From NCBI GenBank assembly GCA_011033025.1, contig WFMF01000126.1:124001-188000 (forward strand): 64,000 bases of DNA, in the 5' to 3' direction. The stretch is from Beroe forskalii (taxonomy: Eukaryota > Ctenophora > Nuda > Beroida > Beroidae). This document shows positions 6,352 through 59,700 of the stretch, piece after piece; position 1 is the first letter of the stretch; each line of letters starts with the position of its first letter. A model generated the notes under the pieces. The model made no database searches. It was given only the letters and a program-made list of their open reading frames with translations, and was not told the origin of the DNA. A program made the translations under genes and the position numbers.

Positions 6352-9300
6352 AGAGAGGTACCTGAACGCGGGCTAAGAGCCTGGGCTGCATGTCCACCTG
6401 CCCAAACCTGCCAGACACTGCATCGCCCGCACCTTGGACGACAGCCAAATCTTCGATCAGCGAGGAACGCCCCGGAGAAGGTGACGATGGTGCGACCCCA
6501 GATAGAACCCAAGAAACCCAAGGCACGTATCCTGACCCCCAGATAGGGAACCCAAGAAACCCAAGGTACTCGTATTCTGACCCCAGATAGAACCCAAGAA
6601 ACCCAAGGTACGTACCCTGACCCCAGATAGAACCCAAGAAACCCAAGGTATTCTGACCCCAGATAGAACCCAAGAAACCCAAGGTACGTATTCTGACCCC
6701 AGATAGAACCTAAGAAACCCAAGGTACGTATCCTGGCCCCAGATAGAACCCAAAAACCCAAGGTACGTATCCTGACCCCAGATAGAACCCAAGAAACCCA
6801 AGGCACGTATCCTGACCCCAGATAGAACCCAAGAAACCCAAGGTAATGTATTCTGACCCCAGATAGAACCCAAGAAACCCAAGGTACGTATCCTGACCCC
6901 AGATAGAACCCACGAAACCCAAGGTACGTATCCTGACCCCAGATAGAACCTAAGAAACCCAAGGCAATGTATTCGACCCCAGATAGAACCCAAGAAACCC
7001 AAGGTACGTATTCTGACCCCAGATAGGACCAAGAAACCCAAGGTATTCTGATGTATTCTGACCCCAGATAGAAACCCAAGGACCTTGGGTTCTTGGGGTT
7101 TCATCTGGGGAATGGGGTTCTTATCATGGGTTTCTTGGGTTCTATCTGGGGTCAAGATACGTACCTTGGGCCAAGGTACGTATCTTGACCCCAGATAGAA
7201 CCCCCAAGAAACCCAAGGTACGTATTGTGACCCCAGATAGAACCCAAGAAACCTAAGGTACGTATTATGACCCCAGATATAACCTAAGAAACCCAAGGTA
7301 CGTATTCTGACCCCAGATAGAACCCAAGAAACCCAAGGTACTTATCCTCACCCCAGATAGAACCCAAGAAACCCAAGGTACGTATTGTGACCCCAGATAG
7401 AACCCAAGAAACCCAAGGTACGTATCATGACCCCAGATATAACCTAAGAAACCCAAGGTACGTATTCTGACCCCAGATAGAACCCAAGAAACCCAAGGTA
7501 CGTATCCTCACCCCAGATAGAACCCAAGAAACCCAAGGTACGTATTCTGACCCCAGATAGAACCAAAGCAACCCAAGATACGTATTCTGACCCCGGATAG
7601 AACCCAAGCAACCCAAGGTACGTATTCTGACCCCAGATAGAACCCAAGCAACCCAAGGTACGCATTCTGACCCCAGAAAGAACCCAAGAAACCCAAGGTA
7701 CGTATCCTGATCCCAGATAGAACCCAACAAGAAACCCAAGGTATTTATATACTGTCTTCACGTCGTTGAACTTTATCAAACAACTTTATACAATCAAATT
7801 TGAGACTTGAAGATGTCGTAGGACGACGAAATTGATTGTCAATAAATCACACGATAGTTTATCGTGTACCAGTACAACCAAGTCAAAAGAGAATTAATTA
7901 TTTAATTGTAATAATTATAAATATAATAATTAACTGTAATCACTCTTCTCAAGGTGGTGAAGCGGCAGAAGAGCCGGGTGTTCAGTGCCAGAGCGCCGGA
8001 TATCAGCCACTTCCCTCTCCTCGTCACCACGGCAGGGGAACTGCTGGCGGCTTCCAAACGGACCAGGGCCATGTCAGCACCAGCCAAGGCAGAACAGAGG
8101 AGCAGCGGCGCTGAGAGCCAGGGTAAGTTGTGAGCTGGCAGTTTTATGTGTTGTGGAGAGCCGGGGTGAGAGGTGGCGCTGAGACCCAGGGTAGGGGTAA
8201 AGGGGTGGTGCATCTCTTGTTGCCGGTAATAATGTAAAAACTGCACCCATTTTTACACCTGTTTTTGCACCTGTAATTTATGAAATGCAGTCCTATGAAT
8301 CCCTCGCCACTGGTTATGATTAAACGCTCTCCACTCCACAGAAGCAAAGACAAAAGAGGATGCAGCTACAGAGGATGACAGTCCTGCATGCGAGTCTTCC
8401 TCAAAGAAACTATTCAGGTGCCTCATTGATTAGTTTGTGTTGAAATCAATTAATAACTATTCCAGGTTTTCCCAGAACAGGTCGGATTTGGTAATAATAT
8501 CATACAGTGGATATCGTACTGTGGATTAATTGCGCTAGTAATATATATTTTTTAATAGAAAACTTGAAGAATACTATCGTTTATAACAACTGGCTCCGAG
8601 AACTGATTGCTGACATTTATATGCCCTCAGTAACGGGATTAAAACGTACCAAGTGGCGGACAGCGCTAATATCAGAGAGCAACGGCAGCTAGAACGACAA
8701 ATAAAGGTAATGGAATATACGTCAAATTTAACTACCAATATATTACGAAGTCAATATTACTGTGACTTCTATCAAACTAGGCAATTAATAATGGCAGATT
8801 TTGACATAAAGTCTAAGAATGGCTTTAAATAACGTTTTCGATGCGCGTTTCTAGTTTTATATAATAATATCCCTTGTCAGGGCATCCAAAGTCTGCAGAA
8901 GATGAACATCAGCAGTATTAACAAAGAGAAGTTGTGCATCCTGCAGCGCTCCAAAGCACTCTCCTCAATGCTCTACCCGGACGTCTACACGGGCAAAACC
9001 CCCAAATTCAGCAGCAAGAAAACCCCGGAGAGCGACTGCTTCGAGTCCGGCACCTACTTGTGCGACCTGTCCGAACAAACGGCAGGGTTCGGGGAGGGAA
9101 GGAAAGGGGACAGTTCCAGGTTCGTTTATTAGCAGGGTTCGGGGAGGGAAGGAGAGGGGACAGTTCCAGGTTCGTTTATTAGCAGGGTTCGGGAAGGGAA
9201 GGAGAGGGGACAGCTCCAGGTTCGTTTATTAGCAGGGTTCGGGAAGGGAAGGAGAGGGGACAGTTCCAGGTTCGTTTATTAGCAGGGTTCGGGGAGGGAA

Positions 9301-10388
9301 GGAGAGGGACAGTTCCAGGTTCGTTTATTAGCAGGGTTCGGGGAGGGAAGGAAAGGGGACAGCTCCAGGTTCGTTTATTAGCAGGGTTCTGGGAGGGAAG
9401 GAAAGGGGACAGTTCCAGGTTCGTTTATTAGCAGGGTTCGGGGAGGGAAGGAGAGGGGACAGTTCCAGGTTCGTTTATTAGCAGGGTTCGGGAAGGGAAG
9501 GAGAGGGGACAGCTCCAGGTTCGTTTATTAGCAGGGTTCGGGAAGGGAAGGAGAGGGGACAGTTCCAGGTTCGTTTATTAGCAGGGTTCGGGGAGGGAAG
9601 GAGAGGGGACAGTTCCAGGTTCGTTTATTAGCAGGGTTCGGGGAGGGAAGGAAAGGGGACAGCTCCAGGTTCGTTTATTAGCAGGGTTCTGGGAGGGAAG
9701 GAAAGGGGACAGTTCCAGGTTCGTTTATTAGCAGGGTTCGGGGAGGGAAGGAGAGGGGACAGCTCCAGGTTCGTTTATTAGCAGGGTTCGGGGAGGGAAG
9801 GAGAGGGGACAGCTCCAGGTTCGTTTATTAGTAGGGTTCGGGGAGGGAAGGAGAGGGGACAGCTCCAGGTTCGTTTATTAGCAGGGTTCGGGGAGGGAAG
9901 GAAAGGGGACAGCTCTAGGTTAGTTTATTAGCAGGGTTCGGGGAGGGAAGGAAAGGGGACAGTTCCAGGTTCGTTTATTAGCAGGGTTCGGGGAGGGAAG
10001 GAGAGGGGACAGTTCCAGGTTCGTTTATTAGCAGGGTTCGGGGAGGGAAGGAGAGGGGACAGTTCCAGGTTCGTTTATTAGCAGGGTTCGGGGAGGGAAG
10101 GAGAGGGGACAGTTCCAGTTTCTTTTTAACCCCAGAGGGGTACCGCTAAAAGGGCTCCTTACTGTATATGGAAAAGTATTTGATCATTTGCCACAGAGAA
10201 AACAACACAATTCACAACCGACAGTCGACACGTATAATAAGCAAAAATGATGAAATTTTAGAAAACTGTACTAATACTATAGTTTTGTATGAATCTTCAG
10301 GAGGAAGAACGTCGCGATGAAATGGAACAATGCAGTCAAGTTGCAGAAACTCAGGAAGGGGGAGGGCAGGGTGGCCAAGAGACCATGA
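6352..10388 (+). CDS. unrecognised basic protein, six 3' exons; 5' end not found
   Basis: I do not recognise the family. Six exons join in a consistent phase: a first visible exon ending at 6522 (start uncertain between about 6352 and 6460), then 7954-8122, 8342-8417, 8631-8706, 8881-9119 and 10301-10388, where TGA ends the frame. Acceptors end in AG and donors are GT (GTAAGT, GTGCCT, GTAATG, GTTCGT); the first visible donor is GC in its first repeat unit. The product is rich in Lys, Arg and Ser, with segments such as IEPKKPK, VVKRQKSRVFSARAPD, SHFPLLVTTAGELL and a basic tail with KWNNAVKLQKLRKGE. No signal peptide or membrane segment is visible in these exons. The composition would suit a nuclear or cytoskeletal protein, but that is only inference. 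Two minisatellites begin at exon 3' ends and fill the introns. A partial second copy lies at 1-1500. Confidence 0.6.
6494..7745. repeat. 40-bp minisatellite derived from an exon end and splice donor
   Basis: About 31 copies of a 40-bp unit containing GACCCCAGATAGAACCCAAG and AAGGTACGTATTCTG. On the plus strand the first unit continues directly from an open coding frame, which reads MVRPQIEPKKPK and ends at 6522. The unit is therefore 29 bases of exon end plus 11 bases of intron start, and most copies carry a good AAG|GTACGT donor. All minus-strand frames are open across much of it (repeats of WVSWVLSGV, GFLGSIWGQ), which is a property of the unit and not a gene. An inverted segment lies at about 7079-7190. 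Confidence 0.95.
9081..10118. repeat. 50-bp minisatellite derived from an exon end and splice donor
   Basis: About 21 copies of the 50-bp unit seen at 1-1220. The first copy continues the open frame of the exon 8881-9119 (CDLSEQTAGFGEG...), and the exon would end at TTCCAG|GTTCGT inside it. The unit is thus 38 bases of exon end plus 12 bases of intron. Each copy repeats the donor-like CAG|GTTCGT and an acceptor-like TTTATTAG. Sequence after the array is shared with 1216-1560. Confidence 0.96.
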
Positions 10389-11156
10389 CTAATATGAGTA
10401 GGCATTCTGTAAAACTCAGACACTGGTCATGAGGCGTATAGGTCGTGAGATGAGGGGAGATTCCAGGAGTGCACTACTCTGATGAGAAATATTCAGACAA
10501 AGTGTGAAACTTCATGTCGAAGAAGAGCCACAGATGCCTCATAACGCTTAGCGAATGCAGTTATGATCGCTTTATAATTGAGACAATTGAGAGGGTTATC
10601 AAGGGCCCAAGCGTAAGGTTGAGAATGAGAGAGGACTTCATGATGATACAGACTAAGGGCTTGGGAATGGCTATTCTTTTCCGAAGAGGGAATAGAAAAT
10701 ATGAACTCCGAAGGAGGATTATTTTATTTGTTTTGTTTATTTCCTTAACATTTTTATCGTGTTTTGATAATGGAAATTTCTTTGAAAACTTAATTCCTGA
10801 TTTTTTCAGCTTCTGATTCGATCATCTCAAAAATCTTAGTCCAAAAATAATCAATTATAATTATACAACACAATATTAAAAAACAGATTACTGATCGAGT
10901 CATTGATGATTAAAACGATGATTAATCCAAATTAACGCAGTTCATTATCGTAACTTTTCAGTGCCCCTTCCTAAGGACTATGATCGATAAGCAAATCATA
11001 TAAATTGTTTTCTGTCATACCCGAGTACGACATTACGTCTCCTCGGCTGACTGCCAAATTGCCAAAAGTACCAGTAAGCTAAGGATCTTTAAAAGAAAAC
11101 AAAGCACGACATACCTTTCTCAGTAGGGCCTGCACAAACCCTCATCATCTGACACC
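10389..11156. other. intergenic
   Basis: Includes one copy of the 65-bp unit at about 10427-10485 that forms an array in the left duplicate. A 100-residue open frame at 10514-10816 has a hydrophobic C-terminus but no recognisable domain, and I do not call it a gene. Confidence 0.5.
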
Positions 11157-15268: not shown

Positions 15269-18200
15269 CTATAAGACGGGGATATCACTTTTCTCCACAG
15301 CGAAGTGCCTGAGCATGTCCGCTTCTAGGGCGTGTAGTTTACCAACAATGCACAAGCTGTGGAGCGGCTCTCCGAAATCTTCTGACAGTAACCGCCTCAA
15401 CGTACCTTCGGGTTGGGATGTATAGAGGGATATTGAGGGTTTGTAGGGAGGTATTGAGGGTTTGTAGGGAGGTATTGAGGGTTTGTAGGGAGGTATTGAG
15501 GGTTTGTAGGGAGGTATTGAGGGTTTGTAGGGAGGTATTGAGGGTTTGTAGGGAGGTATTGAGGGTTTGTAGGGAGGTATTGAGGGTTTGTAGGGAGGTA
15601 TTGAGGGTTTGTAGGGAGGTATTGAGGGTTCGCAGATATAAAGGGAAGCGTCAAACGTTCAAAAACACAGTCCTTCAAAGTGTGAAATTGTTCCGTAATG
15701 GACTTGCTGTATCTAAGTAGTAACAAGGTAAAAACTAAGATTTATGTTTATTCATCGGGGGTGTAAGGTCGGGGGATATAATGTCGGGGGGGGTCCCTTA
15801 ACCAAACTATACTAATACCCTCCTGGTCACCTGATTTGATGGTCTGGTTGTCTGTCCCGAGTCTGGCTACCCCACACACAAAGTCACCTGATTTGATGGT
15901 CTGGTTGTCTGTCCCGAGTCTGGCTACCCCTACACACAGAGTCTCCTCACTCAAGACAGTCCGTTCCTCTTCCGTCCTATCAGGCAGGATTTCCAGTATT
16001 TGTGTTAGGGCAGTGTTAACTGACATGAACTGCGGTGGTTCGTACACCTTCCTTCCCTTCACCATCTCACTCCAGTCAATCTCCTTGACCTGTGATAATT
16101 ATAGTGTGCCAAGAGAAGGGAACCGAAACGTAGATTGGGAACAGTTCACGAATAAACGAAAATAGTGGCACACTTCGTTACGACAGAAGTTGGATTCTAT
16201 TATTGTTTCCACTGTCCATCCACCATTTTTGATAGAAATTCTATTTTCAGCTGAGTTCACTCGAATCAAAAGTTTTATCTATCACGGTGTATGAGTTAAT
16301 GGTACATGCCTAACGCAACCGAACGCAACTTAAATACTGCGCATCGATAAGAATTTTCCATTAAATGTGCCTTTGTTGACCAATTGGCCCGCTTCAAATA
16401 TCAGGGATTGTGCCATAATTTGGTAAATATCAAATAAACCGAGTTATCAGAATTCGGAATGAAATCATCAGGCAGACTTTAAAAAGGCCGGGTAGCTTTC
16501 ATTCGATCAATTTAGCTTTTCATAATATACACTGAAATCCACACACCCACAATCTGGAAGCGCCGTGTGCGCGTAATTTTCAGTTCCATAAAGATCGCGT
16601 GCTACACATAGTCGAACAAAAATGGCACAATATTATTTAATTTGATTGGCAAAAGTGGCTAGTTTCGGCTATCAGCGAAAGGAATAAAGTATAAACAAAC
16701 TTAAACAAAATAAACAAACTTAAACAAAATAAACAAACTTAAATGCTTCTTGTTTGTGAAACCATACAAACAGAAAGACTTGGTATTTTTCAGGGGACAG
16801 GTTTCTAAAAATGCTCGCTTTTGATTTTGCCACCTGGCCATTCCCCACTAATACTGGGTCACAACATCTAAAAGTTCCGTATTTGAAGGATCTGACAACG
16901 ACAACTGCAAGCGATAAAATTTTGGCGTCAATCGCATGAAAAACTTCCCACTGTAATTTAGGAAGACCAACAATTCAGCGCCACCTCTTATTTTCACGTT
17001 GCGTACTACAATGACAGCTAACAGGAAACCTACAATGTGGTAAACACCACGCAAAACGCCAAGATACTTTTCCCAATAACATTGCACCTAAATACATGGT
17101 ACAATTCTATAAGGTTTCACATCGCATAAAGAAACAAAGTAAACGTATCAACACACAATGTAACATGAATAGACATTTGGCATCCTATCAGTTATCACCC
17201 TAGGGATGACGCCATAACCACGGCACAAAATGATAAGTATTGATGAAATATTAGGGCGTTCGGAAATGATTGTCACTACAGGCATAAAATGACAAATATG
17301 ACCAAATATGTCAAAATTTCGACATATTCGAGTACAAGGGTCTCTACCAGACTGAATTGCAAATTTTCAGTGTTAAAGAAGATTTTTGAGTGGGTCATCT
17401 AGCTAGTTTTTTTTTTATCGCTTTCAGGTGCTCCGCTGTATGGCAAATTCTACATCTTCTAGGCCATGTTTTTATGGTCCGATTTCACTATTCAGGACAT
17501 ATTCAGGGCGTTCAGGTTCAAAACTAAAGAATAGGATGATTGGTTGACTTCCGGGGCAAATTTATGTACAATTTAACCGTGCATGATTGATAAAGATTGG
17601 AGCTAAATTTGGCAAGTTTAACAGTTCAGTAACCGATAATGCAGTACACATCTTGCACACACGTTTCTGAAGTTAAGACAATAACTCAAAATCTTAAAAA
17701 TGGTTGTCCCGTGTACGGAAGGGTCTGAACTAAAAGCCTAACACGATAACCGAACGTATCAAGTTATCTAAATGTTACATTTCTGGGCAATTGTCAGAGC
17801 AAAAGTTGTAATTGCCCTATCTGGAGCATATCTTTTTTGAGGTCAAAGCACCCCCTTAAGATTATTTCAACTCGACGAAAAACAGTTCATTTGTTCCAGT
17901 AAGCATCAACGTGTGCTGCAACACCCTCATTTTGATTATCTCGCACTTCCTGGGTCCGTTGATATCGTGTTTTCTTTGATTACGAAATTTGTGGTCAGTT
18001 TCGTACAGCGGAGCAAAAAAATTAGAAATTTGAATCCGCCGTAGAATGGGCTAAGAAAACTTAGTTATCGGTAAAACCCGATTATCTTAATCCAAAAATG
18101 TCTGAAAAAAACGAATATCGCATCAAAAAGTCACTTCCGGCAGCCGTTTCTCCAGGAAATTGCAAGTGACAATCTTTTCCGAACGCACTATTATGAGCGC

Positions 18201-22245: not shown

Positions 22246-24486
22246 TTAGTAAGCTGATAGGAGGGGGTGGCCATGCAGCTCCTCAACTACAGGACGATCT
22301 GCAGGCTCATGTTCCAGACAGCTCAAAACAAAGGATTTTAGCTGCTCTGGCACCGAGTCAGGAAAGGAAAGCTCGTGCTTCATTCGTTTCTGGGCTATTT
22401 TAAACATTGCTGCAAGAGGCTCAATTCCGAAGAAGGGAGGATTTCCCGAGAGGAACTCGAAGACTGTCACCCCAACACCCCATATGTCAACTTTGTAGGT
22501 GTAAGCTGAAATTGTAATCTGGTTAGGTACCCAATATGTATATTGTATGATCTACTATCTGTTTATGTAAAGATGTAACGGTCAAGATAATGACACATAT
22601 GTCTGTTTAGTGTTTCACCATTGGAGGCACAGGTAGCTAGTTCGCTGTGTACATTGTATTAAAGTATTGAATAGCAATGTTAATGATATTAATTCTCTAA
22701 ATATAATTGGGAAAGCTTGGGATGGCATGTATTGCAGCTATCCAGTAATGTATTCCATGCAGTTTCCAATGAAATTGTGAGGATATTTTGAACAGCATTG
22801 TGTATAATATTATGAATATATGTGAAAGTCATTGTTAATGTTGCAATTTAAATACCTAAGCCTGTTAATTCAATCTGCTTTTAACAACTGCAATATATCA
22901 AGAAAAGTTAGAATTCTAAGAAAAATCCCATAACTGTATACTGATAAACCTTTATAGATAAGACATTGGATTAGTTCTTTCAAGACAAGAGAAATTTTGA
23001 ACTATTGTTAGTTGAGTGAGCTGACCATGTACCTAACTCCTAACTACCAAGTACACCTTTTCAATCACAATGAGTTAATTCACATTAGTCACAGCTATTA
23101 AACTGCGCCAATAAACTACAATATAAACTCACTCTCAGCTTTGATGACTTCTGGGGCCATCCAGTAGGGTGTGCCAACAACAGTATTTGCTCCATGAATG
23201 CTGCGTAAAGCATCAAACTGCTTCGAAGCTCCAAAGTCTGCTATCTTTATATCTCCTTGAGATGTTCTCAGTATATTAGCAGCTTTTAAATCCCTATGAA
23301 CAATGTTCTTGGAATGAAGATACATCAATCCAGACAGAATATGCCTCAAGCATTTAACAACATATTTAGTTGACAATGGTCCATTGTTTTGGATGAATGA
23401 TCGCATAGAGCCACCACTCACGTACTCCATGAATATGTTGAAAGAGTCATCGTTATAAATTGATCCGAAATACATGACAATATTTGGATGTTCAAGAGTT
23501 TTCAATATTTCAATCTCATTATTCAATGCCTTGAGCTCCCTTTTTGAATGCTTACATTTAGAATCAAATAAAACCTGCTTCAGTGCAATGTCACATCCAG
23601 TGTCAACTTCAATACATAGGTAAACTTTCGCAAAACCACCACTTCCAATCATCTGTTTCAAAAGATAACCATCAGGCAGCTGTATGGCTGTTGTATTCAA
23701 ATCACACTGCAAATCGTCATAAGATGCTCGAGTTGAAGAACTAATTGAGATAGATGAATCAAAGTTGGATCTATCTGTATCAGCTTCAATAGGAAATTCT
23801 TCAGTCAAATGACGAGGTATGTCACCATCATATGGAGTTGGAACATGTACAGAAGCACTAGAACCAGATTTAGACTGGTTAAGGATCAAGTGCTTGTTTT
23901 CAGGGCTTTGAAAACCTGAGTCAGGTGACCAGCATCTATTTGCAGGTACAAATCTCCCTTCACTGCTATGATTAGGATAACATTGTCTATTTTCATTAGG
24001 TCCAATAAAATCCTCGCCATCAACAGGTTCAGGAATATAAAGACTGTAAGTAGCATGTGCTGACTTGGTTCTCCTATGACCTTTCTTACCTTGAGTGGAT
24101 TTTGATGAATTCTCCTCTTTTATTTGTGATGAAGAAAACACAACACTCAGTGCCTCTAAATCCAGGGGACTTAATGGGGATACTATTTGCTTAGATGATT
24201 GTGACAAGGTCCTAGATTTCTTCACATAGATTTCTATTTTCTGGTTACCCTTTTGAACTAAATCTTGGAATTCACTATCTCTTCTGAGTTTCCTTAGAGT
24301 TCCAGTTCCCCTGAGTATGTAACATCTATATGTATCACCACACTTCTGCTGTACATAATTATTAAGATCTTCCAATGATATTCTTTGGTCAGGGATGATT
24401 TCAAAATCTGTCTCACTTTCAGCAGTGTAACATTTTATAATACACCAAGGTTCACATGGATACAGTGCCATGTTGTAGTGGTGCAA
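22246..24486 (-). CDS. MAP3K2/3 (MEKK)-like serine/threonine kinase
   Basis: Two minus-strand exons, 24486-23133 and 22505-22246 (TAA), with donor GTGAGT and acceptor TTTCAG, code for 537 residues. Residues about 10-90 look like a PB1-type domain (basic and acidic patches, ending KIEIYVKKS). A Ser-rich linker follows to about 260. The kinase domain has the glycine loop IGSGGFAKVY, the lysine in DIALKQV, the helix-C glutamate in NNEIEIL, HRDLKAAN, DFGASKQ, TVVGTPYWMAPEV and, after the intron, VDIWGVGVTVFEFLSGNPPF. All catalytic residues are present. ALKQV, GGSM and DFGASK are typical of MEKK2/MEKK3, which activate MAP2K5 and other MAP2Ks. The N-terminal match to PB1 is weaker than the kinase match. 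Two partial pseudogene copies of the first exon lie at 36156 and 45557. Confidence 0.88.
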
Positions 24487-32288: not shown

Positions 32289-34852
32289 ATTTCCACTGCA
32301 GGGTTCCAGAGGACGGGTAGGAAATGATCTCTCTATACTGTTCAAGTTTATTTTACCTGCTGGCTGCTTATGTTACTCTATTACCAGTATTATCAGTGCT
32401 TTAGTGTAGTCTAGATGTGGCGGGGTGCAGACTATTGATCATCGCGATGTTATCAGAAGTTGGCAAGTTGGAGATATTTAGTTGTGTGGCCGCTGGCTTA
32501 TGTCAAGAATGAAGTTAATCACGTATTATATATTTAGAAGCCCTTTGCAGTTACAATCAATCGATGCACAAGGAGTGACAAAGCTACGTTCTGTCGTTAG
32601 AAATTGCCATAGAAAGTCCCCCTATATCCTTCCTTTTCTTACTTTCTTAACTCCATATGTACAAATCCCCTCTCGGCCATTTTGTGGACTGCACAAAATC
32701 TAAGACCATAAATTTAATACTGTACGACGAGCTTATAAATCCATGCGAATTTCAATATTATTAACTTATTTTAGTATTAAACTAAGGTATATTCTTACTC
32801 AAATTTATTGATTACTGTACTCTTTATCTAAGTAAGATACAAACATTACTAAGGCAACGAAAAATATAGTTTGTTTTTTATCTTAACAGCAACCAAAGAC
32901 TGATTCAACCAGTAAGCACGCTAAATTTCCCTATGAATTGATGCCCCCATCACACCATAATAAAATATAAATCTCCATAAAGCATATTAACATGTTCTGG
33001 CAGGAATCTCAAAAGCCTAATCATTGAATGCATGGCACTATTTCAGGTTATGTCAACACCCAAAAAGTCCCATCAGCACAGTCAAGAATATGAAGAAGAT
33101 CGCAAAGGTAAGAAACATGATCTACTGCATAAGATATGTCTCGATTTATTCACTGCCGACGTGGAAAAGTACACTACCCTTGGCAATGAGAAAATAGAGA
33201 CCCTGAAGAACCTGGATCTGTTTGTGCTGGACAACTCGATCCGGGAAACCACAGTGGGATCCCTCCGGGGCCATACTCTGGACGACAAACGTGCTATCCT
33301 CAAAGAAATCAAGAAATGCGGGTTCAAGCATTACGTGATCGAGTCTTTCAACAACGAGACAAGAGTCGGAGATATGCTGTTGGAGACACTAAATGATGCT
33401 AACGAAGATTTAAGCGGAGCATTTGCCTTTTCTGAAACCTGGGATGTCGTGAAAAAGGAGATCCCTCAAGAGGAGCCTATTCCAGTGGGCATGAGAAAGT
33501 GCAAGCAGTTTGGGGTGCCTAATGTCATAATAGAGGTAGATCTGGCCTACTACAAGGTGAACTACGAAAAATTTGATGCAGCAGATGTGTGCAAAATGGT
33601 GCAAAAAAGGATTGAATGGATGCGAGAGAACGTATCAAAAGACTCGCTGATCCTCGTGAACCTGAGGGACATGTCAGAAGCAATGGCTCAACAACCCGAA
33701 AGGGTCTGGAAGGTAGTTAACTTCCTGTCCACTCTTTCACCCGGAGACCGGATAATGGGAATACTCCTGGAGGATCTGGGGAAGTACGACAAGGACCACC
33801 TCGGAGGGTGGACTAAAGCCATCAGGAATGAGATGATGCGATGTGGGTGGGAGGAGGGGCAGCTACTGGTCCATGTGCATGAGCAGTGGGGGCTCATGCA
33901 AGGCAATGTCCTGGAGATGCTGGCCATGGGAGGAACTGGCATCTGGAGTGGGGTCTGCACTGAGGGGGCAGCCATGGGGCATGCTGACTCCTGCACCACC
34001 ATCATCAACCTCATCAGGCTGGGAAACACCAAGGTGCTGAAGAGCATGAACTGCAAGTACTTGCGGGAGGCTGCTATCAATGTCACTAAGATAGTCACCA
34101 CTAAGAAGCCATACGAAAGACAGCCGATTTACGGAGAAAGGGCAACCGACATGGTCTTTGGGTTCGTTTTTCTCACAAATGGCTGAAAGCCAAGCCTCTG
34201 CAGAAGTGCCGGAGTTTAACTTGAGTGAGTTCTTGGGACTCACATCGGAGATGCGTATAACAACCATTGCTTCTCCAGAAATGATTCTTACGAAGTTGAT
34301 AAGAGTATTTGGAGATGACCAACGCTTTACTCTAAGTATAGCTGAGGATATGAAGAATGAGATGTTGAGCAACATGGGCGCCGGAAGGAAAGAGGAGTAC
34401 AACAGCCCATCGGGTCTTGCCATGTTGTTTGATCAATCTGGTGGCAAAATAACTCCTGCAATGGCTGAAACCATCATATCTGCAAAGAAAAACAGCCCTT
34501 ACATAGACGTGCTGATCGAAGAAGTAAAAGAAAAGTGGGACTTATATGACGCAAAAGATGGTAAAGCTGATGACTGTGTTTCGTTTGAAAACTTCCACAA
34601 CGGCTTCATGGCCCCCTACTTTGGATGCTACAGGTGTGAGGATAGCCAGGCTGGTCTCAGAGCTCTGGATATGGACTCTGACGGAACAGTGGATTGGGTG
34701 GAGTTCAAATACTTCCTGATCTGGGCAGGCAGACAGTATCCCCAGGTGAAGACCTCTCAGGAGCTGGTGGACCTGGCATTCAGACATGGACTCATCCCCG
34801 CCATGATAGACGAACTTAACTTGAATAAGCAGATTTGAGCTTATAGAAAGAT
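32289..34852. repeat. segmental duplication, copy 1 (DRE-TIM/EF-hand gene)
   Basis: Matches 50258-53879. Homology starts near TTTCCACTGCAGGGT and ends just after the stop codon at GAGCTTATAGAAAG. The upstream flank is clearly diverged, while most of the coding part is nearly identical. Copy 2 has extra sequence at about 50320-50990 and 51235-51765. Confidence 0.93.
33032..34838 (+). pseudogene. DRE-TIM/EF-hand protein, copy 1, frameshifted
   Basis: Same gene as 52063-53868. Residues 1-384 are open from ATG 33032; then one extra T in a T run (about 34168-34173) shifts the frame after FGFVF, and the C-terminal half continues open in the next frame to 34838. No other break is seen. It is either a pseudogene or an assembly error; the window has other homopolymer errors, so error is quite possible. 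Most of the barrel part is nearly identical to copy 2, but the first 35 residues differ at many positions. An AATAAA lies at 34968, 130 bases after the stop. In copy 1 the bases before the second ATG read TTTCAG, which would be a good acceptor. Confidence 0.85.
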
Positions 34853-35939: not shown

Positions 35940-36785
35940 AAAACCAAACAATATGATAACATATATGATAATATTTAGTCCTTAATGGGTGGCCCTATTA
36001 ACAGATTTTTAATTTGGCTTGGTGCCTGCCCTCAGCACGACCCAGCAGCCTCTTACTATATACAAATCCAATAGAAATGGAGAGAGAGTATATTTCAATA
36101 ATTGTGCTGTAAAATCTTATAATTGAATTAAATTGCAATTAAAGTCCATATCACCATTTGACCAGGTGACCAGCATTTATTTGTAGGTACAAATCTCCCT
36201 TCACTGCTATGATTAGGATAACATTGCCTATTTTCATAAGGTCCAATAAAATCCTAGTCATCAACAGGTTCAGGGATATAAAGACTGTAAGTAGCATGTG
36301 CTGACTTTGTTCTCTTATAGTCTTATGACCTTTCTTACCTTAAGTGGATTTTGATGAATTCTCCTCTTTTATTTGTGATGAAGAAAACACAACACTCAGC
36401 GCCTCTAAATCCAGGGGACTTAATGGGGATGCTATTGTGACAATGTCCTAGATTTCTTCACATAGATTTCTATTTTCTGGTTACCCTTTTGAACTAAATC
36501 TTGGAATTCACTATCTCTTCTGATTTTTCTGAGAGTTCCAGTTCCTCTGAGTATGTAACATCTATCTATGTTTCACCACACTTTTTGCTGTACATATTAT
36601 TTAGATCTTCCAATGATATTCTTTCTCAGGGATGATTTCCAAAATCTGTCTCACATTTTCAGCAGTGTAACATTTTATAATACACCAAGGTTCCCCATGG
36701 ATACAGTGCCATGTTGTAGTGGTGCAACTATGTACATTTCTCTGAAAGATAATGTTTAGTGATCTTATCAATAATTCAGGGGCAG
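35940..36785. pseudogene. duplicated block with MAP3K exon fragment, copy 1
   Basis: 36156-36785 matches the first exon and start of the kinase gene (about 23921-24565), in the same orientation, with frameshifts, stops and deletions. The preceding 200 bases and this fragment match 45340-46180. The 5' untranscribed side of the parent is also included, so the copy arose at DNA level and not by retroposition. Extra bases in short runs appear towards 36580-36720, next to the low-quality block. Confidence 0.9.
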
Positions 36786-37275
36786 AAAAAAGGTTTTTAA
36801 AAAAATTTTTTTTTTTTTTCCCCTTTTTCCTTTTTTTAAATTTTTTTTTTTTAAAAAAAGGGGGAAAATTTTTTTAAAAAAGGGGGTTAAAAAAAACCCC
36901 CCCCCCCTTTTTTCCCCTTTGTTTCTTTTTTGGGGGTTTTTAAAAAATTTTTGGCCCTTTTTTTTTTTAAATTTCCCCTTTTTTTAAATTACCCCCAAAA
37001 AACCCCTTTTTTTTTAAAAATTTTTTTTTTAAAAAAACCCCCCGGGAATTTTCCAAAATCTGAAAAAAAATTTTAAATTTAAAAAAACCCCCCCAAAAAA
37101 GGGGGTTTTTTAAAAAAAATTTCTTTTTTTAAAAATTTTTTTTTAAAAAATTTTTTTAAATTCAAAAAAAAAATTTTTCCCCTTGGTTTTAAAAAGGGGG
37201 GCCCCCAAATTTAGTTTTTTTTCCCCCAAACCCCCCCCCAAAAAAAAACCCCCCCCCCTTTTCCCCAAAATTTTA
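36786..37275. other. homopolymer-only block, probable sequencing artefact
   Basis: Almost the whole stretch is made of runs of three or more identical bases (A, T, C, G). Real DNA of this composition would be extraordinary. It has no counterpart in the duplicate block at 46180 and looks like a failed consensus. Confidence 0.8.
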
Positions 37276-42406: not shown

Positions 42407-42506
42407 NNNNNNNNNNNNNNNNNNNNNNNNNNNNNNNNNNNNNNNNNNNNNNNNNNNNNNNNNNNNNNNNNNNNNNNNNNNNNNNNNNNNNNNNNNNNNN
42501 NNNNNN
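42407..42506. other. assembly gap (100 N)
   Basis: A run of exactly 100 N, just downstream of the fold-back cluster. The true distance is unknown. Confidence 0.99.
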
Positions 42507-42985: not shown

Positions 42986-42989
42986 CTAT

Positions 42990-44779: not shown

Positions 44780-44799
44780 TTTTGTGCGGAGGCGGGGGT

Positions 44800-46180: not shown

Positions 46181-46371
46181 TTCTTGAGTTATTGCACTTG
46201 AATCATACTCAAACATGAAATATTATCATCATTAGTGATTTGAGTTAAGTGAAAGACTGCATATTGCAATTCATTAATTCAAACACCTGAGTGAGTCTGA
46301 ATATAGCGGTGGAAGGCTGGGCTTAAAAACACGAAATATAACATGAAAGTGAGAGACAAACAAGCAGTTAA

Positions 46372-49242: not shown

Positions 49243-49406
49243 TTACAAGGGGTTCACTACCTCCACGTAGTTAGTAGGGAACACCCCCCGTCTTCCTCTC
49301 AGCTCCCCCTCGTACCAGTTCTCATCCACCTGCCGTATCAACGTCACCATGTCGCCTTCCTTCAGTTCTAGTTCAGACTCACCTTCCGGCTCAAAGTCAA
49401 ACATCG
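49243..49406 (-). CDS. terminal exon with an endophilin-type SH3 domain (partial gene)
   Basis: After a TTTCAG acceptor the minus strand codes for 54 residues to [50 protein letters not shown]. This is a nearly complete SH3 domain starting at the ALYDFEPE position, with the WYEG and FPxNYV signature of endophilin-A and close relatives. SH3 domains of endophilin bind proline-rich tails of dynamin and synaptojanin in endocytosis. The next upstream exon would lie to the right on the minus strand, but I could not identify it. Endophilin BAR exons are 7 kb away on the opposite strand, so this is either a second gene or a rearranged or mis-oriented piece. A 50-bp tandem duplication covers its acceptor. 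Confidence 0.85.
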
Positions 49407-49520
49407 CTGAAATGAATAGGAAGGGTTACGATAAAATGTTTGGAAATCAAACATCGCTGAAATGAATAGGAAGGGTTAGGATAAAATGTTTGGAAATCAA
49501 ACATCGCTGAAATGACTGTT
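49397..49520. repeat. 50-bp tandem duplication over a splice acceptor
   Basis: A 50-base unit beginning AAACATCGCTGAAATGAATA occurs at 49397, 49447 and (partly) 49497. It spans the exon start and the CATTTCAG acceptor (minus strand) of the SH3 exon, so three equal acceptors lie in a row. Confidence 0.93.
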
Positions 49521-51630: not shown

Positions 51631-52062
51631 CAAATCCCCTCATGGCCATTTTGTGGACTGCACAAAATCTAATATTGTCTTAGATTTTGTGCAGTCCACA
51701 AAATGGCCAAGAGGGGATTTGTACAAATGGAGTTAAGAAGAGGAAGGATAAAGGGGGACTTTCAGTACTGTACGACGAGCTTAGAAATCCATACGAATTT
51801 CAATATTAACTTATTCTAGTTACACTAAAGTATATTCTTACTCAAATTTACTGATTACACTTCAACTAAGTAAGATACAAACATTACTAAGGTAACGAAA
51901 AATATAGTTTGTTTTCCATTTTAACAGTAACCAGTGACTGATTTAACCAGCAACCACGCAAAATTTCCCTATGAATTGATGCCCCCATCACACCATAATA
52001 AATCTCCATAAATCATTTTAACATGTTCTGGCAGGAATCTCAAAAGCCTAATTATTGAATGC

Positions 52063-53868
52063 ATGGCACTATTTGAGGTTATGTCAACACGCAAAAAGTC
52101 CCGACAGCGCAGTCCAGAATGTAAAGAAGGTCGCAAAGACAAGAAACATGATCTGCTGCATGAGATTTGTCTTGATTTGTTCACCGCCGACGTGGAAAAG
52201 TACACTACCCTTGGCAATGAGAAAATAGAGACCCTGAAGAACCTGGATCTGTTTGTGCTGGACAACTCGATCCGGGAAACCACAGTGGGATCCCTCCGGG
52301 GCCATACTCTGGACGACAAACGGGCTATCCTCAAAGAAATCAAGAAATGCGGGTTCAAGCATTACGTGATCGAGTCCTTTAACAACGAGACAAGAGTCGG
52401 AGATATGCTGTTGGAGACACTAAATGATGATAACGAAGATTTAAGCGGAGCATTTGCCTTTTCTGAAACCTGGGATGTCGTGAAAAAGGAGATCCCTCAA
52501 GAGGAGCCTATTCCAGTGGGCATGAGAAAGTGCAAGCAGTTTGGGGTGCCTAATGTCATAATAGAGGTAGATCTGGCCTACTACAAGGTGAATTACGAAA
52601 AATTTGATGCAGCAGATGTGTGCGAAATGGTGCAGAAAAGGATTGAATGGATGCGAGAGAACGTATCAAAAGACTCGCTGATCCTCGTGAACCTGAGAGA
52701 CGTGTCAGAAGCAATGGCTCAACACCCCGAAAGGGTCTGGAAGGTAGTTAACTTCCTGTCCACTCTTTCACCCGGAGACCGGATAATGGGAATACTCCTG
52801 GAGGATCTGGGGAAGTACGACAAGGACCACCTCGGAGGGTGGACTAAAGCCATCAGGAATGAGATGGTCCGGTGTGGGTGGGAGGAGGGGCAGCTACTGG
52901 TCCATGTGCATGAGCAGTGGGGGCTCATGCAAGGCAATGTCCTGGAGATGCTGGCCATGGGAGGAACTGGCATCTGGAGTGGGGTCTGCACTGAGGGGGC
53001 AGCCATGGGGCATGCTGACTCCTGCACCACCATCATCAACCTCATCAGGCTGGGAAACACCAAGGTGCTGAAGAGCATGAACTGCAAGTACTTGCGGGAG
53101 GCTGCTATCAATGTCACTAAGATAGTCACCACTAAGAAGCCATACGAAAGACAGCCGATTTACGGAGAAAGGGCAACCGACATGGTCTTTGGGTTCGTTT
53201 TCTCACAAATGGCTGAAAGCCAAGCCTCTGCAGAAGTGCCGGAGTTTAACTTGAGTGAGTTCTTGGGACTCACATCGGAGATGCGTATAACAACCATGGC
53301 TTCTCCAGAAATGATTCTTACGAAGTTGATAAGAGTATTTGGAGATGACCGACGGTTCACTCTAAGTATAGCTGAGGCTATGAAGAGTGAGATGTTGAGC
53401 AACATGGGCGATGGACGAAAAGAAGAGTACAACAGCCCATCGGGTCTTGCCATGTTGTTTGATCAAGCTGGTGGCAAAATAACTCCTGCAATGGCTGAAA
53501 CCATCATATCTGCAAAGAAAAACAGCCCTTACATAGACGTGCTTATCGAAGAAGTAAAAGAAAAGTGGGACTTATACGACGCAAAAGATGGTGAAGCTGA
53601 TGACTGTGTTTCGTTTGAAAACTTCTACAACGGCTTCATGGCCCCCTACTTTGGATGCTACAGGTGTGAGGATAGCCAGGCTGGTCTCAGAGCTCTGGAC
53701 ATGGACTCTGACGGAACAGTGGATTGGGTTGAGTTCAAATACTTCCTGATCTGGGCAGGCAGACAGTATCCCCAGGTGAAGACCTCGCAGGAGCTGGTGG
53801 ACCTGGCATTCAGACATGGACTCATCCCCGCCATGATAGACGAACTTAACTTGAATAAGCAGATTTGA
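52063..53868 (+). CDS. intronless DRE-TIM (HMGL/IPMS-like) barrel + EF-hand protein, copy 2
   Basis: A single open frame of 601 residues. Residues about 55-370 look like a DRE-TIM metallolyase barrel: LFVLDNSIRETT holds the metal-binding Asp and catalytic Arg-Glu of the DRE motif, GFKHYVIESF follows as the next strand, and HVHEQWGLMQGNVLEMLAMG is the His-x-His metal site near the end of the barrel. This is the fold of HMG-CoA lyase, isopropylmalate and homocitrate synthase. Residues about 400-600 are a separate C-terminal region with one canonical EF-hand (DMDSDGTVDWVE: D1, D3, D5, G6, E12) preceded by a degenerate one (DAKDGEADD). The substrate is unknown; calcium control is inference. No signal peptide. 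The first ATG was chosen; a second at residue 7 is possible. Lack of introns amid intron-rich genes suggests a retrogene origin or one very large exon. Confidence 0.85.
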   Translation: MALFEVMSTRKKSRQRSPECKEGRKDKKHDLLHEICLDLFTADVEKYTTLGNEKIETLKNLDLFVLDNSIRETTVGSLRGHTLDDKRAILKEIKKCGFKHYVIESFNNETRVGDMLLETLNDDNEDLSGAFAFSETWDVVKKEIPQEEPIPVGMRKCKQFGVPNVIIEVDLAYYKVNYEKFDAADVCEMVQKRIEWMRENVSKDSLILVNLRDVSEAMAQHPERVWKVVNFLSTLSPGDRIMGILLEDLGKYDKDHLGGWTKAIRNEMVRCGWEEGQLLVHVHEQWGLMQGNVLEMLAMGGTGIWSGVCTEGAAMGHADSCTTIINLIRLGNTKVLKSMNCKYLREAAINVTKIVTTKKPYERQPIYGERATDMVFGFVFSQMAESQASAEVPEFNLSEFLGLTSEMRITTMASPEMILTKLIRVFGDDRRFTLSIAEAMKSEMLSNMGDGRKEEYNSPSGLAMLFDQAGGKITPAMAETIISAKKNSPYIDVLIEEVKEKWDLYDAKDGEADDCVSFENFYNGFMAPYFGCYRCEDSQAGLRALDMDSDGTVDWVEFKYFLIWAGRQYPQVKTSQELVDLAFRHGLIPAMIDELNLNKQI

Positions 53869-53879
53869 GCTTATAGAAA

Positions 53880-55115
53880 GCACTGATAGAAGCCAGAGTG
53901 TAAGAAATTTGTGACATTGGCTTATTTATACATCATCGTTCAAAAAGATTATATTGCCAATTTTTTCACATAAAAAGTTAGTTTGGACATCTGTAGTGAC
54001 CAAAAAGTTTTTTTGAACATGATATTACCTTATTTGTGGCAACTGTGAGGTTAGATATGAGGCTGATTGGAGCAAAAAATGCCCTATTTCGCAGCTCTCT
54101 TTGACCAGACCACGGAAAAATTAAAGCAGGTAGTCAGGATCTATCCATGTCAACTTGTAGCAGCCATGGGTACTACAGTTTGGTGTAGGATTGGTTTCTT
54201 TTCTGTGTTGGATATTGAGGTTAAGAAGGCCGGTCTATGCGCGCACGCGTACACCGCCTTCGATAACCTCAACCGGGCCAAAAAGGACTTGACTTTTCCA
54301 GTGAAGACTCTTCTGATGTAATAATATCTCATCAAATTTTTGAGATAGGTCCCAAGGCTGTATCTCTTTTAGTTTTTGAGTTATGAGCTCTTTTGTGAGG
54401 GAAATCGGAGTCACATAGTTAAAGATCAAATGGAATCCCGTGCATATGGAATGTTAATACGAAGTTTGGAGTGGTTTTGGCCACTTTGGACTATTTAGAA
54501 ACTATTTAGACGTGGCGACAATTTTTATTTCAATGTCGCCACCCATTTTGGGCCACGCCCATTTTTGGCACTTTGCGCATGGCCCAAAAATCGAAAAACT
54601 AGAATGAATCCCTATATAGCCCATGTGTTACATCGATTTTATGGTAAATTGACCCGAGAAACACGATGCAACCAACGTTTTTGCTCTCCGAGGTTCCTGT
54701 CAGGAGATAAGGTGACCACACCCACTTTTTGGCCTAGCGCGAAGGCTGATTTTCGAGAGGTATAACTTTCATGGAATAAGTATCATGTGATACATCAAAC
54801 TTGTAGTAAATTGACCCGAGAAACACGATGCAACCCACTTTTTTGCTCTCTGTCAGGAGATAGGTGAGGCTTTTTCAGAAGGCTGATTTTCGTAGTTAAT
54901 TGACCGAGAAACACGATGCAACCACTATTTTGCTCTCCGAGGCTCCTGTCAGCGGATAAGGTGAAGGCTTTTTTGGCCTTTTGAGAGATATAACTTTCAT
55001 GGAATGAGTGGTATGCGATCATCAAATTTAAGGTAAATCGACCTGAGAAACACGATGCAACCAACGATTTTTTACTCCTCGAGGCTCCTTTCAGGAAATA
55101 AGATGACCACACCCA
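53880..55115. other. non-coding with a diverged ~130-170-bp repeat
   Basis: From about 54640 to 55075 the phrase TTGACCCGAGAAACACGATG recurs four times (54648, 54812, 54899, 55039), each followed by CAACC..TTTTGCTCTC and parts of TAACTTTCATGGAAT. Upstream, GTGGCGACA and TGTCGCCAC (54504-54543) form a short inverted pair. No coding support. Confidence 0.65.
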
Positions 55116-55469
55116 CTTGCACTCTCCTGAACGACCCTTTCGCAGTCCTGAACGACCCTTTCGCAGTCCTGAACGACCCAATCACACTCCTGAACGACCC
55201 TTTCGCAGTCCTGAACGACCCCATCACACTCCTGAACGACCCTTTCGCAGTCCTGAATGACCCTTTCGAGGTCCTGAACGACCCAATCACACTCCTGAAC
55301 GACCCTTTCGCAGTCCTGAACGACCCTTTCGCAGTCCTGAACGACCCAATCACACTCCTGAACGACCCTTTCGCAGTCCTGAACGACCCTTTCGCAGTCC
55401 TGAACGACCCAATCACACTCCTGAACGACCCTTTCACAGTTCTGAATGACCCAATCACACTCCTGAACA
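55116..55469. repeat. 21-bp minisatellite, array 1
   Basis: About 16 copies of a 21-bp unit containing CTGAACGACCCTTTCGCAG, with a subtype reading AATCACACTC. Because 21 is divisible by three, frames on both strands are open (LNDPFAV, PERPFRS, GSFRTAK repeats), but no start, signal or neighbouring exon supports translation. Confidence 0.96.
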
Positions 55470-56035
55470 TAGGTGCAGATAATATTTTTTTGCAGTTCCC
55501 GAGAAATTTCTTGCAGTTTGGTTTCATTGTAGCTCAGTCGGCGGCACCTCGTTCGCAGATAGTAGCAGCAGGTTGGGCATTATCTACAGGGCAGGGGTCT
55601 TGGGGTGCAGCCCCAGAAGCCAGAGGTTCCAAACATTTAGAAGTTTCGTGGAAGTGATATTTCTGCAAGAGAAAACTTTTTCAGTTTACATTTAAAATTC
55701 ATATCGTTACTGAATTTCATTCGCAGCCCCCAGGAGCCAGAGGTCCTGAAAGAACCAACTAATTGGAACCATAATTTTTTACAACAAACCAAAGACCCCA
55801 GAAATGCCTGCAAAAGCAGATTTTCTTGTGAAGATGAAGAAACAAACTGTAGTTTGGACCACAACTTTATCGAAAGGTTTGTCTTGAATGCAATTCTCCT
55901 AGACAAACTGCAACTCACAGTCCTGAATTTCATGCAACATCAATGAAATTTGCTCTGCAATCTGAATAATTTTGCAGTTTGCTCAGGGAATTTGCAGTTC
56001 CCGTCAGGACCTCCAGTCACCATATCTGCAGTGGT
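55470..56035. other. spacer interrupting the 21-bp array
   Basis: A 566-base insert between two parts of one repeat family. Its ends carry GGTGCAGAT and ATCTGCAGTGG in inverse order. It contains a tRNA-like A box (TAGCTCAGTCGG at 55532) and two diverged copies of GCAGCCCCAGAAGCCAGAGG (about 55607 and 55725); the inverse GGCTTCTGGGGCTGCACCCC is at 59516. This may be a tRNA-derived SINE, but a proper B box is not convincing. Confidence 0.4.
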
Positions 56036-56685
56036 GCTCCTGAACGACCCTTTCGCAGTCCTGAACGACCCTTTTGCAGTCCTGAACGACCCTTTCGCAG
56101 TCCTGAACGACCCAATCACACTCCTGAACGACCCTTTCGCAGTCCTGAACGACCCTTTTGCAGTCCTGAACGACCCTTTCGCAGTCCTGAACGACCCAAT
56201 CACACTCCTGAACGACCCTTGCACTCTCCTGAATGACCCTCTTACGCTTCTGAACGACCCTCTCACAGTCCTGAAAGACCTTATCACGGTCCTGAACAAC
56301 CCTTTCACAATCCTGAACGACCCAATCACACTCCTGAACGACCCTTGCACTCTCCTGAACGACCCTTTCGCAGTCCTGAACGACCCAATCACACTCCTGA
56401 ACGACCCTTTCACAGTCCTGAACGACTCAATCACACTCCTGAACGACCCTTGCACTCTCCTGAACGACCCTCTTACGCTCCTGAACGACCCTCTCACAGT
56501 CCTGAAAGACCCTATCACGGTCCTGAACGACCCTTTCACAGTCCTGAGCGACCTACTCACAGTCCTGAACGACCCTTGCACTCTCCTGAACGACCCTTTC
56601 GCAGTCCTGAACGACCCAATCACACTCCTGAACGACCCTTTCACAGTCCTGAACGACCCAATCACACTCCTGAACGACCCTTGCA
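56036..56685. repeat. 21-bp minisatellite, array 2, upstream of an endophilin exon
   Basis: About 31 copies of the same unit with higher-order variation (CTTGCACTC and CTCTTACGC subtypes in a repeated order). It ends about 25 bases before the first recognised endophilin exon. Its pyrimidine-rich plus strand could serve as the polypyrimidine tract. Confidence 0.95.
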
Positions 56686-56709
56686 TAACAGTTTTCACGT
56701 CACATTTCG

Positions 56710-59700
56710 ATGAGAATCATGGATTTCTTGCAGCCAAATCCTGTAACCCGAGCAAAGCTGGCAACACAAGCTCAGTACGCCAGAGCTCGAGGTACTGCTG
56801 CAGAGATGCAGTACCCTCAGACTGAGAGACAAGTGGGGGAGATCGTGACGAAAAGTGCTCTGGAGATAGGGGAATACTCCAGCTATGGTAAGTGAGCTGT
56901 TGGAGGGTGTCTTGCTCGTATCTGTCATGCTTTTGATTGTTTTAATGCTTTTATGTTCAGTGTAGGTAGTCTCCATTACTTACAAGGTTAGAAGGTTACA
57001 AATGATTGTTGACGTATAGACTATAGGCATGTGGTAACAATGTGCAATTTATCATGATAACCTCATCAGCACCATGTTAGCACCTCATTAACAAGCCAAA
57101 ACCCCATCAGGAGCAGCTGTTGTTGAGTTGGGGGACGGCTTCATGAAACTAGCAGACATCAAAGATGCTTTGGTGAGTAACACAAGCCTTTGGATGAAGT
57201 TGCTTTGTACAGCACTGAATTACTGAAGAATTCAACGGAGAATTTTCAATGCAGTCATTAAAATTGTTGATGTCAAAACTTGGATTATATTTTCAGGACT
57301 GTGACATAAAACAGAATTTTATTGATCCTATGGAGCAAACCATCAAAGCAGACTACAAAGAAAGCATACAGGTACTTTAGCTGATGCTCAGTGCCTCTCT
57401 TACTTAATGCTGCTTATACCAAAATTGAAGGATGTCTGTTATCAATTTCAGTCAATTAAGCCGAATTAAGCATTCTTGTATTCGTTGCATACGAAGAATG
57501 TTTGAGCTTTAAGCTGATAAGTTGGCCCCTCAATGGTTCAAAATAGTCTCACATCCTGCTTGTGAAATGCTAATTGCTTTGGTATCTACATTCTTCAATA
57601 TCATGAAAATATGGACCCATCACGCAATGATTACTCCTAATCCTGCGCTCAAACAAGCGTGAAACCGGCCCCAAACCGGCGTAGCGATTTGTTCTATTGA
57701 CCCTAATTTCTGTGCCCTTTTCATGCGCTTATAATACTTCATCCCCTCTCATCACTATCTACCCCCTTCTCCTCCCATATTAATTGAGTGATTGACTCAG
57801 TGCTTTCAGCTCAGTCAAGAAGCTTCTTCATACTATAGATTATTGAGTCTTTATATTCCCATTTCTTTCCTCCAGAGTCACAGGAAGAAGATGAACTCGA
57901 GGAGGCTGGACTACGACTACAAGATCAGTCAGCATGAGAAGGGCAAGGTCTCGGACGAGGAACTCTACATGGCCGAGGATAAGTTCAACGAGAGCATGCA
58001 GGCTGCCGACGTGGGCATGAAGAAGTTCGTGCAGGGCGAGGTACGTGCGAGTTAATATTATTCCACACTTGATACGGGTTTTTAGATTCACTAATAGGGT
58101 TTGCTCGAGCTATTTCTCCATGATGTATTGTTCGAGTTACCTAACAGAATTTGTATGATGTGGAAGGAAGTGCCTCGAATTGAAGTGAGGTGAAAAGGAG
58201 TAACAGAAAGTCCATGTGTGAAATGTGAAGTGAAAGGTGCGATGTGTGATGTGTTGGTTATTTAGTGGGATGTGAAGAATAACCAAACCACGTGCACAGT
58301 AACTTGTCACTTCTCCCTCTACATTTGATCATTACATGCCACTTCATATCAATGCCACTCGATTCACATACCACTCCATTTTCCTACGACTACAGCTCCC
58401 TGTACACTAGGACAGCTCCCTGTACACAAATCAAGAAGAGGTATGAAAGTGTGTGACCTGATAAGCAACAGCAATGTGACGTGTGTATGTACATTCGTAC
58501 GTCTACATTCTCGTGAACATCATCATCTTATGATCTGGAGGGGGTGATGTAATACCACGTTTATTTTTAGATATTTGAGAATCTGAGATGTGTATTTTCA
58601 CACGTCATGTGAAAAAGAATTCCCATTCTTCTCATAAATTATCCATTTCTGTCGTCGTATAGAAAATACAATAGCTGACACATTTTTAGCTAATCTGTCA
58701 GACTTTCTTTTTATCTTTAATTAGTTTTTGGAAATCCTGGGTGTCATATTCCACTCTCTTTTTTTCAAAACGAGTACATCAGATACACTGTATCTGACAT
58801 ATCTGAAAACGTGGTACAAACGAGACACGCATAGCACCGTGTACTGTGAAATAGGTATAATTTCTCAGTGCTTTATACATTTTCAGCTTTTCTCTATTAA
58901 CACTTATTCTATTGAATCTATTATTAGAAAAAAGACATGCGTTATGCAATTACACGCCATATCATTAGCAAGGAAGGTTCTTGGGATAAAATATAAATCA
59001 AATTGCTGTCATGGTTTGAGGACTATCGGAAAAGCAGTGAGATTCTCCTCTGTGTGAAATCACGCAGTTCAAATAACTGTTGTTCTGGGTGAGGCCTCAC
59101 TCAGCACAACAGTTATTTCAACTTGCAGTTCAAAGTAAGGCAGTGAAATTTGTACTACAGGAATATCTTTCTGCTATTCAGATAATCCGTAAACCATGAC
59201 ATGATGCTACAGACGGTGGTGTCCTGAACTTCTTATCTTCTTGAGTTTATTACCGCTGAATAATGTGCCAGTGAGTATCAAAAGTTTTAAAAGTAATGAG
59301 GCAGTGTACTACACTCAGTTTCTTTTATAAGAAACTGTCTATAAGAAACTTAGCCTAGGATTCTCAAAAATTTAAGAAACTTAGCCTAGAATTTCGGAAA
59401 AATTAAGAAACTTCATTGATTTGAAATTAAGAAATTACGAAACTTCTAGCCTAGAATTTTGAAATTTGTGTATAAAATCTATTGCAACTGAAATTCTTTT
59501 AACATGAAAACGTCTGGCTTCTGGGGCTGCACCCCCAGACCCCACTTTTGATTGTAAACATTTTGATACTAATTAAGAACTTATTTTGGCCTTACAGTAT
59601 TACACTGGACATGTGATAATAATTGATATGTACAGAAAAGTTGAAAATGGCTCTTCCATGATTTGTCGTTAAAAAGTAACATATCAGATACCAAAGCACA

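Follow-up and report, generated by a model that had tools for sequence, protein, structure and literature searches.

The window analysed here, a stretch of 64,000 nucleotides from the ctenophore Beroe forskalii (assembly GCA_011033025.1, contig WFMF01000126.1, positions 124,001 to 188,000 of the forward strand), carries short tandem arrays that lie across exon-intron junctions of a gene that we call gene X, of the diphthine synthase gene DPH5 and of an exon encoding an SH3 domain. The original prediction, made from the letters of this DNA, had placed six arrays on or against splice junctions, and Tandem Repeats Finder (TRF), run over the window, recovered all six. Exon junctions were placed from the reading frame, protein families and homologues where possible, and an automated straddle test marked 4 of the 23 window junctions, or 4 of 22 if the mis-set endophilin acceptor at 56733 is left out. 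The marked junctions are the donors after positions 6522 and 9119 on the plus strand, the donor after exon base 15888 on the minus strand and the acceptor at exon base 49406 on the minus strand.

Two of these junctions belong to gene X, which spans 6312-10385 on the plus strand. Exon 1 (6312-6522) is damaged in this copy, with a TGA, small indels and GC for GT at the first donor. Exon 2 (7954-8122), which begins in phase 0 at the acceptor TTCTCAAG|GTGGTG, shares one frame with exon 3 (8342-8417), exon 4 (8631-8706), exon 5 (8881-9119) and the terminal exon (10301-10385, ending RKNVAMKWNNAVKLQKLRKGEGRVAKRP and stop) across four introns. The gene X protein had no match among solved structures and, in its window version, none in Pfam. 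On the donor side of exon 1 lies a 40-bp array (6494-7743, 30.8 copies), each unit of which joins the last 29 nt of the exon (ending PQIEPKKPK) to 11 nt of intron (GTACGTATTCT). Exon 5, which ends in GFGEGRKGDSSR, is likewise straddled at its donor, CCAG|GTTCGT, by a 50-bp array (9082-10126, 20.9 copies) whose unit consists of the final 38 nt of the exon and 12 nt of intron. The junction of the 40-bp array is supported by a second, upstream copy of gene X on contig C166, in which exon 1 is open (C166:110043-110252) and matches the window exons in phase.

The other two junctions lie on the minus strand. A 57-bp duplication (15826-15947, 2.1 copies) repeats the end of DPH5 exon 2 together with its donor, TCAG|GTGAC. 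The assignment to DPH5 is certain, as nearly the whole spliced protein aligns to solved diphthine synthases, and this alignment is gap-free at the duplication-bearing intron when the first donor is used; the second copy is also open and, 57 being 3 x 19, the frame is kept with either donor. A 50-bp duplication (49397-49515, 2.4 copies) stands on the acceptor side of an exon identified by family match as encoding an SH3 domain, and its unit combines 40 nt of intron end with 10 nt of exon start (TTTCAG|CGATGTTTGA), with TTTCAG present in all three occurrences. TRF, the straddle test and, in turn, the gene X frame, the diphthine synthase alignment and the SH3 family match agree with the prediction that the first three arrays copy an exon end with its donor and the last an acceptor. 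That all four are real splice junctions is supported, as far as sequence can tell, by reading frame, protein family or homology.

By holding both an exon edge and its splice site, the units at 6494, 9082, 49397 and in DPH5 match the 'mirages' of amphioxus, in whose globin genes BflGb6 and BflGb9 minisatellite-like duplications spanning an exon-intron boundary are described in one report (PMC3087553). The same report describes splicing as seemingly undisturbed and the lengths as variable, proposes intron gain, cites amphioxus Adh3 as a further case and considers the phenomenon "possibly" general in cephalochordates (PMC3087553); PGBD5 and TnC are added to the amphioxus mirage genes in a later report (PMC3902484). 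The Beroe arrays resemble the amphioxus ones in spanning the boundary, in lying on either the donor or the acceptor side, in carrying AG or GT in many units and in their unstable length. The Adh3 case is reportedly described in Canestro 2002. Unit lengths in amphioxus are 10-72 bp for Adh3 and 150-160 bp for the globins, compared with 36-84 bp here. All published mirage cases that we met come from a cephalochordate, whereas the host here is a ctenophore, and the amphioxus examples are scattered cases, whereas the Beroe arrays also occur in exons sampled blind to their repeats. Normal splicing is reportedly supported in amphioxus by reverse transcription-PCR, while the arrays described here are known from sequence alone. 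The kind of array is thus already known and named, and its occurrence in a ctenophore adds a second, distant animal lineage; no report of junction-spanning arrays in ctenophores was met in a limited literature search. Minisatellites near alternative exons in C. elegans, as described in PMC4039745, were judged not to be the same thing.

Both gene X arrays appear to have formed in place, since their units are confined to this locus. Every one of the 66 genome-wide pattern matches to the 40-bp unit lies on C166 at the gene X locus; of the 123 genome matches to the 50-bp unit, the 100 listed are all on C166 and the remaining 23 are explained by the window, with 3 in 1043-1300 and 20 in 9000-10200. 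Both units are present in the window copy and in the upstream copy. The two copies form a locus duplication of about 20 kb (C166:104.9-126.3 kb against window 2385-10500), joined across a gap of 100 N (window 2285-2384). Their pieces are 94.5-97.6% alike, some containing array sequence; similarity falls to 82% for a short segment and for the region of the 42-bp array, and to 90.5% for a piece that includes the 50-bp array. The two may be alleles set in tandem by the assembler. At gene X, the locus at which length was tested, three arrays differ between the copies. The 40-bp array measures about 1.25 kb in the window and 2.4 kb upstream. The 50-bp array measures about 1.0 kb in the window and 6.1 kb upstream, 2.6 kb of the longer one being known from pattern matches alone; the upstream array starts near C166:119083 and its end lies at 45-1229 of the window (plus strand). 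A 65-bp unit is present as a single copy in one locus copy and as 11.9 copies in the other. Because the sizes differ, array lengths are unstable, whether the copies are alleles or tandem paralogues.

Similar arrays recur in exons chosen without sight of repeats. From whole-genome family searches, 20 of 96 Helicase_C matches and 12 of 150 RRM matches were fetched, picked by hand with the sequence unseen for an open frame of up to about 200 amino acids without a stop, a low E-value and distinct places; some qualifying matches were left out (e.g. on C907), and kinase matches do not form part of the sample. Junctions were placed by hand at 56 of the 64 ends of these 32 exons, the unplaced ends being the donors of L040, L053 and L062, the acceptor of L041 and both ends of L060 and L066. 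Arrays straddle 6 of the 56 junctions: 5 of 29 acceptors, in L042 (71-bp unit, a CHD1 exon), L044 (54-bp unit, irregular), L048 (two copies of a 74-bp unit), L052 (77-bp unit) and L055 (a unit of about 84 bp), and 1 of 27 donors, in L043 (36-bp unit). The homologue alignment of the CHD1 exon is gap-free over 1-74, one copy being enough, and no gap crosses the duplicated part in the alignments of the L043, L048 and L052 exons; the exon identity of L044 and L055 is based solely on the Helicase_C match. Visual inspection of random loci picked out further exons (DnaJ-like, phosphodiesterase-like and others), and none of the 23 junctions located there, out of 25, is straddled, so that the pooled sample holds 6 straddled junctions in 79. 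The broader prediction, that such arrays are a feature of this genome, stands to the extent that four of the six named places and 6 of the 56 sampled junctions bear them, and is not borne out for the two named 21-bp arrays discussed below.

The splice sites carried by the extra copies are mostly intact. The 40-bp array of the window is the most worn, with GTACGT following 17 of its 31 exon-edge copies, compared with 42 of 56 in the upstream 40-bp array; the other donor decoys retain GTTCGT in 19 of 21 and GTTAGT in 8 of 8 cases, and acceptor decoys keep their AG in 5/5 (L042, L052), 4/4 (L055), 3/3 (the SH3 duplication), 2/2 (L048) and 5/6 (L044). Selection, then, has not silenced these decoys, and correct splicing requires the spliceosome to take the copy beside the full exon. 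Unit lengths are near the chance expectation, 4 of 10 being multiples of 3 (57, 54, 84, 36) and 6 not (40, 50, 50, 71, 74, 77), and the lack of a clear multiple-of-3 bias is expected if the extra copies are untranslated.

We consider it likely that these arrays are mirage-type minisatellites that arose by tandem duplication in place across a junction and mostly then expanded, their extra copies being spliced out and tolerated. A short segment across an exon-intron junction would be duplicated in tandem at its own site, and in most cases the duplication would then be expanded, probably via unequal exchange or slippage. The copy beside the intact exon would stay functional, and the other copies, lying on the intron side, would be removed if the spliceosome takes the exon-proximal site, a choice that would give the shortest exon, as exon definition would predict. 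Such arrays would then be tolerated like other intron repeats and be presumably neutral, while the same duplication within coding sequence would alter the protein. The original suggestion that the arrays persist through tolerance fits the position of the extra copies, their lengths and their mostly intact decoys.

Several observations weigh against this account. The 36-bp unit of L043 is open through several copies, some of which are possibly translated. In the window, the 40-bp array begins with a GC donor although many of its later copies have GT, and exon 1 is damaged; this copy of gene X may therefore be poorly sequenced or a pseudogene. All six positives in the sample fall among the 37 Helicase_C junctions and none among the 42 outside helicase exons (0/19 RRM, 0/23 in random loci), and the null for large arrays described below consists of 11 arrays in 12 loci.

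One alternative, which we hold to be possible without favouring it, is that a repeat-rich genome simply has arrays hit junctions at the same rate as other sites. As a null, pseudo-junctions with a non-repetitive exon interior were placed in 12 random 10-kb loci (29,848 placements); 2.1% were straddled overall and 0.5-4.5% by locus, and the 6 straddled junctions among 56 correspond to P 0.001 by this null (P 0.04 at the worst locus rate). Repeat-proneness climbs with GC content, from 1.2% at 35-45% GC to 8% above 65%, and, exon edges being GC-rich, this tendency contributes part of the excess at junctions. Matched for GC, the expectation is 2.2 of 79 junctions compared with 6 observed (P about 0.02), a difference that becomes unremarkable if the matched rates are doubled (P 0.26). 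A first, blunter test, in which any position inside an array counts as touching, gave no clear excess either (6/20 helicase and 0/12 RRM exons, against 116/800 and 59/480 random windows), and with the 5-8% straddling of GC-rich stretches and the absence of positives outside helicase exons it speaks for coincidence. The proposed count of arrays at splice sites against a random expectation, run here on a sample, showed an excess in the GC-matched comparison and no clear one in the touch test; the straddle test was adopted after the latter result was known, and the comparison of large arrays was added later still.

That last comparison argues against coincidence, as does the GC-matched one. Of the 32 exons, 5 have a junction straddled by an array of at least 150 bp, whereas 21,184 random windows give 1.0% (P 2e-5) and the most cautious null, in which two array-rich loci were added and GC was held at 50-66%, gives 3.5% (P 0.005). 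Moreover, 5 of the 6 arrays of this size in view straddle a junction, where 23-34% would be expected. The count of 5 in 32 was set by comparing TRF coordinates with the placed junctions and not by the script of the null itself, and these nulls contain 11 to about 19 arrays with placements that are not independent, so that the P values are rough. An excess at junctions is thus supported as real, imprecisely measured, moderate, partly compositional and drawn from a small sample.

Whether the excess has a cause of its own bears on a second alternative, namely that some process linked to transcription or splicing, such as R-loop formation or junction repair, favours duplication at splice sites, as the original prediction had suggested. 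We think this unlikely. The moderate excess and the fact that gene X alone has arrays at two of its junctions point toward it; against it, motifs in random DNA that resemble splice sites show only the background rate of straddling (1.8-2.3%; donor-like 4/227, acceptor-like 18/786, those with a long pyrimidine tract 1/45), composition accounts for part of the excess, and arrays are also located away from known junctions. The arrays themselves are real, and a moderate excess of them at junctions is supported.

A third alternative, that the arrays are steps toward new introns, draws on the Rogers model, in which a duplicated AG|GT segment gives both splice sites; in potato RdRp, a duplication across an intron-exon boundary made an intron, according to PMC4974935. 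The arrays share with these cases a boundary-crossing duplication that multiplies splice signals, and their units carry AG|GT, but the extra copies here seem absorbed into an existing intron instead of making a new one. Where an intron was viewed whole, the array adjoins just one of its ends and bears no relation to the other. The two ends of the gene X and DPH5 introns have 1-5 nt in common and so do not come from two copies of one segment, and 16 other introns compared have at most 7 nt in common (one row being measured from the wrong donor copy). We regard this explanation as improbable for the arrays. A single phosphodiesterase-like intron in L008 (assigned by eye; minus strand, about 928 to 516, 412 nt) does have the same 18 nt directly repeated at both of its splice sites (CCACCGCTATGCTGCAG|G), and looks like a recent intron gain or an insertion with target-site duplication.

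It is very improbable that all arrays are copies of mobile elements inserted near exons, an origin likely for one 21-bp family found on 14 contigs among the places listed and in facing pairs, given that the 40- and 50-bp units are restricted to the gene X locus and that the units of gene X, L042, L043, L048 and L052 contain the coding edge of their own host exon.

Returning to duplication in place across junctions, a more far-reaching form of that account can be offered tentatively. Splice junctions might be preferred birthplaces of minisatellites in a ctenophore lineage, with about 1 junction in 13 affected, intact decoys being ignored because splicing picks the exon-proximal site, and the phenomenon might be a recurring one and not a cephalochordate peculiarity. 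If so, exon edges would be a recurring source of repeats in genes and, occasionally, of new introns. Mirages were previously scattered amphioxus cases, and a distant lineage in which about 8% of sampled junctions (6/79) carry them makes their origin testable genome-wide. How splicing selects a single site from many identical ones likewise becomes testable with mapped RNA reads, and in such genomes errors may affect gene models and copy-number calls close to exon edges.

The two remaining arrays of the original prediction, both with 21-bp units and both said to lie against acceptors, appear to be of other kinds. The one in DPH5 (15431-15630, minus strand, 9.5 copies) is intronic, ending 25 nt short of the acceptor (first exon base 15405), and is negative in the straddle test; all 8 genome-wide matches to its unit are at this array. 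It does not span the junction. By eye, L041, L045 and L054 also have intronic repeats near an acceptor without exon sequence, and such intron-only repeats possibly form a second class.

The other (56038-56682, plus strand, 30.7 copies), also recovered by TRF, stands before endophilin BAR exons. Its unit (CCTGAACGACCCTTTCRCAGT) belongs to a family dispersed over many contigs, so that the array was hardly made from the endophilin acceptor: there are 78 forward and 102 reverse matches, with 100 listed places on 14 contigs, including window 55125-56682, C166:191622-192666, C492, C327, C221 and others. A further member of the family detected by TRF lies just upstream in the window (55125-55468, plus strand). 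Members form facing arrays at four places, 0.2-1.1 kb apart. In their layout, these non-junction 21-bp arrays, with both orientations and facing pairs, resemble foldback-like mobile elements, which have repeat-rich inverted arms. The CAG before 56734 resembles a glutamine codon (MDFLQPNPVTRAKL), which makes the 5′ end of the endophilin exon ambiguous. The SH3 exon described above, an endophilin-like terminal exon (49246-49406, minus strand), lies about 7 kb from the endophilin-like BAR exons (56722-58040, plus strand) on the opposite strand, an arrangement that could reflect a local inversion, a second gene or a misassembly.

Some further features of the genome and window were recorded. Genome searches gave 13 innexin matches and, in a search run without a positive control, no match to Cys-loop receptor domains. 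COX1, encoded on a contig of 13.3 kb in which TGA is translated as tryptophan, is very divergent from solved vertebrate COX1, with roughly half of its residues, judged by eye, identical. Set beside what is known of animal genomes, these indirect signs favour a ctenophore over amphioxus as the probable host. Two very similar long open frames are present in the window, one at 32981-34838, split in two frames, and one of 618 amino acids at 52012-53868, the latter having no Pfam match above the cut-off. Finally, a short frame at 36601-36873 (minus strand) resembles by eye 24400-24486 (minus strand), the start of a kinase frame at 23116-24486, of which it is probably a partial duplicate.

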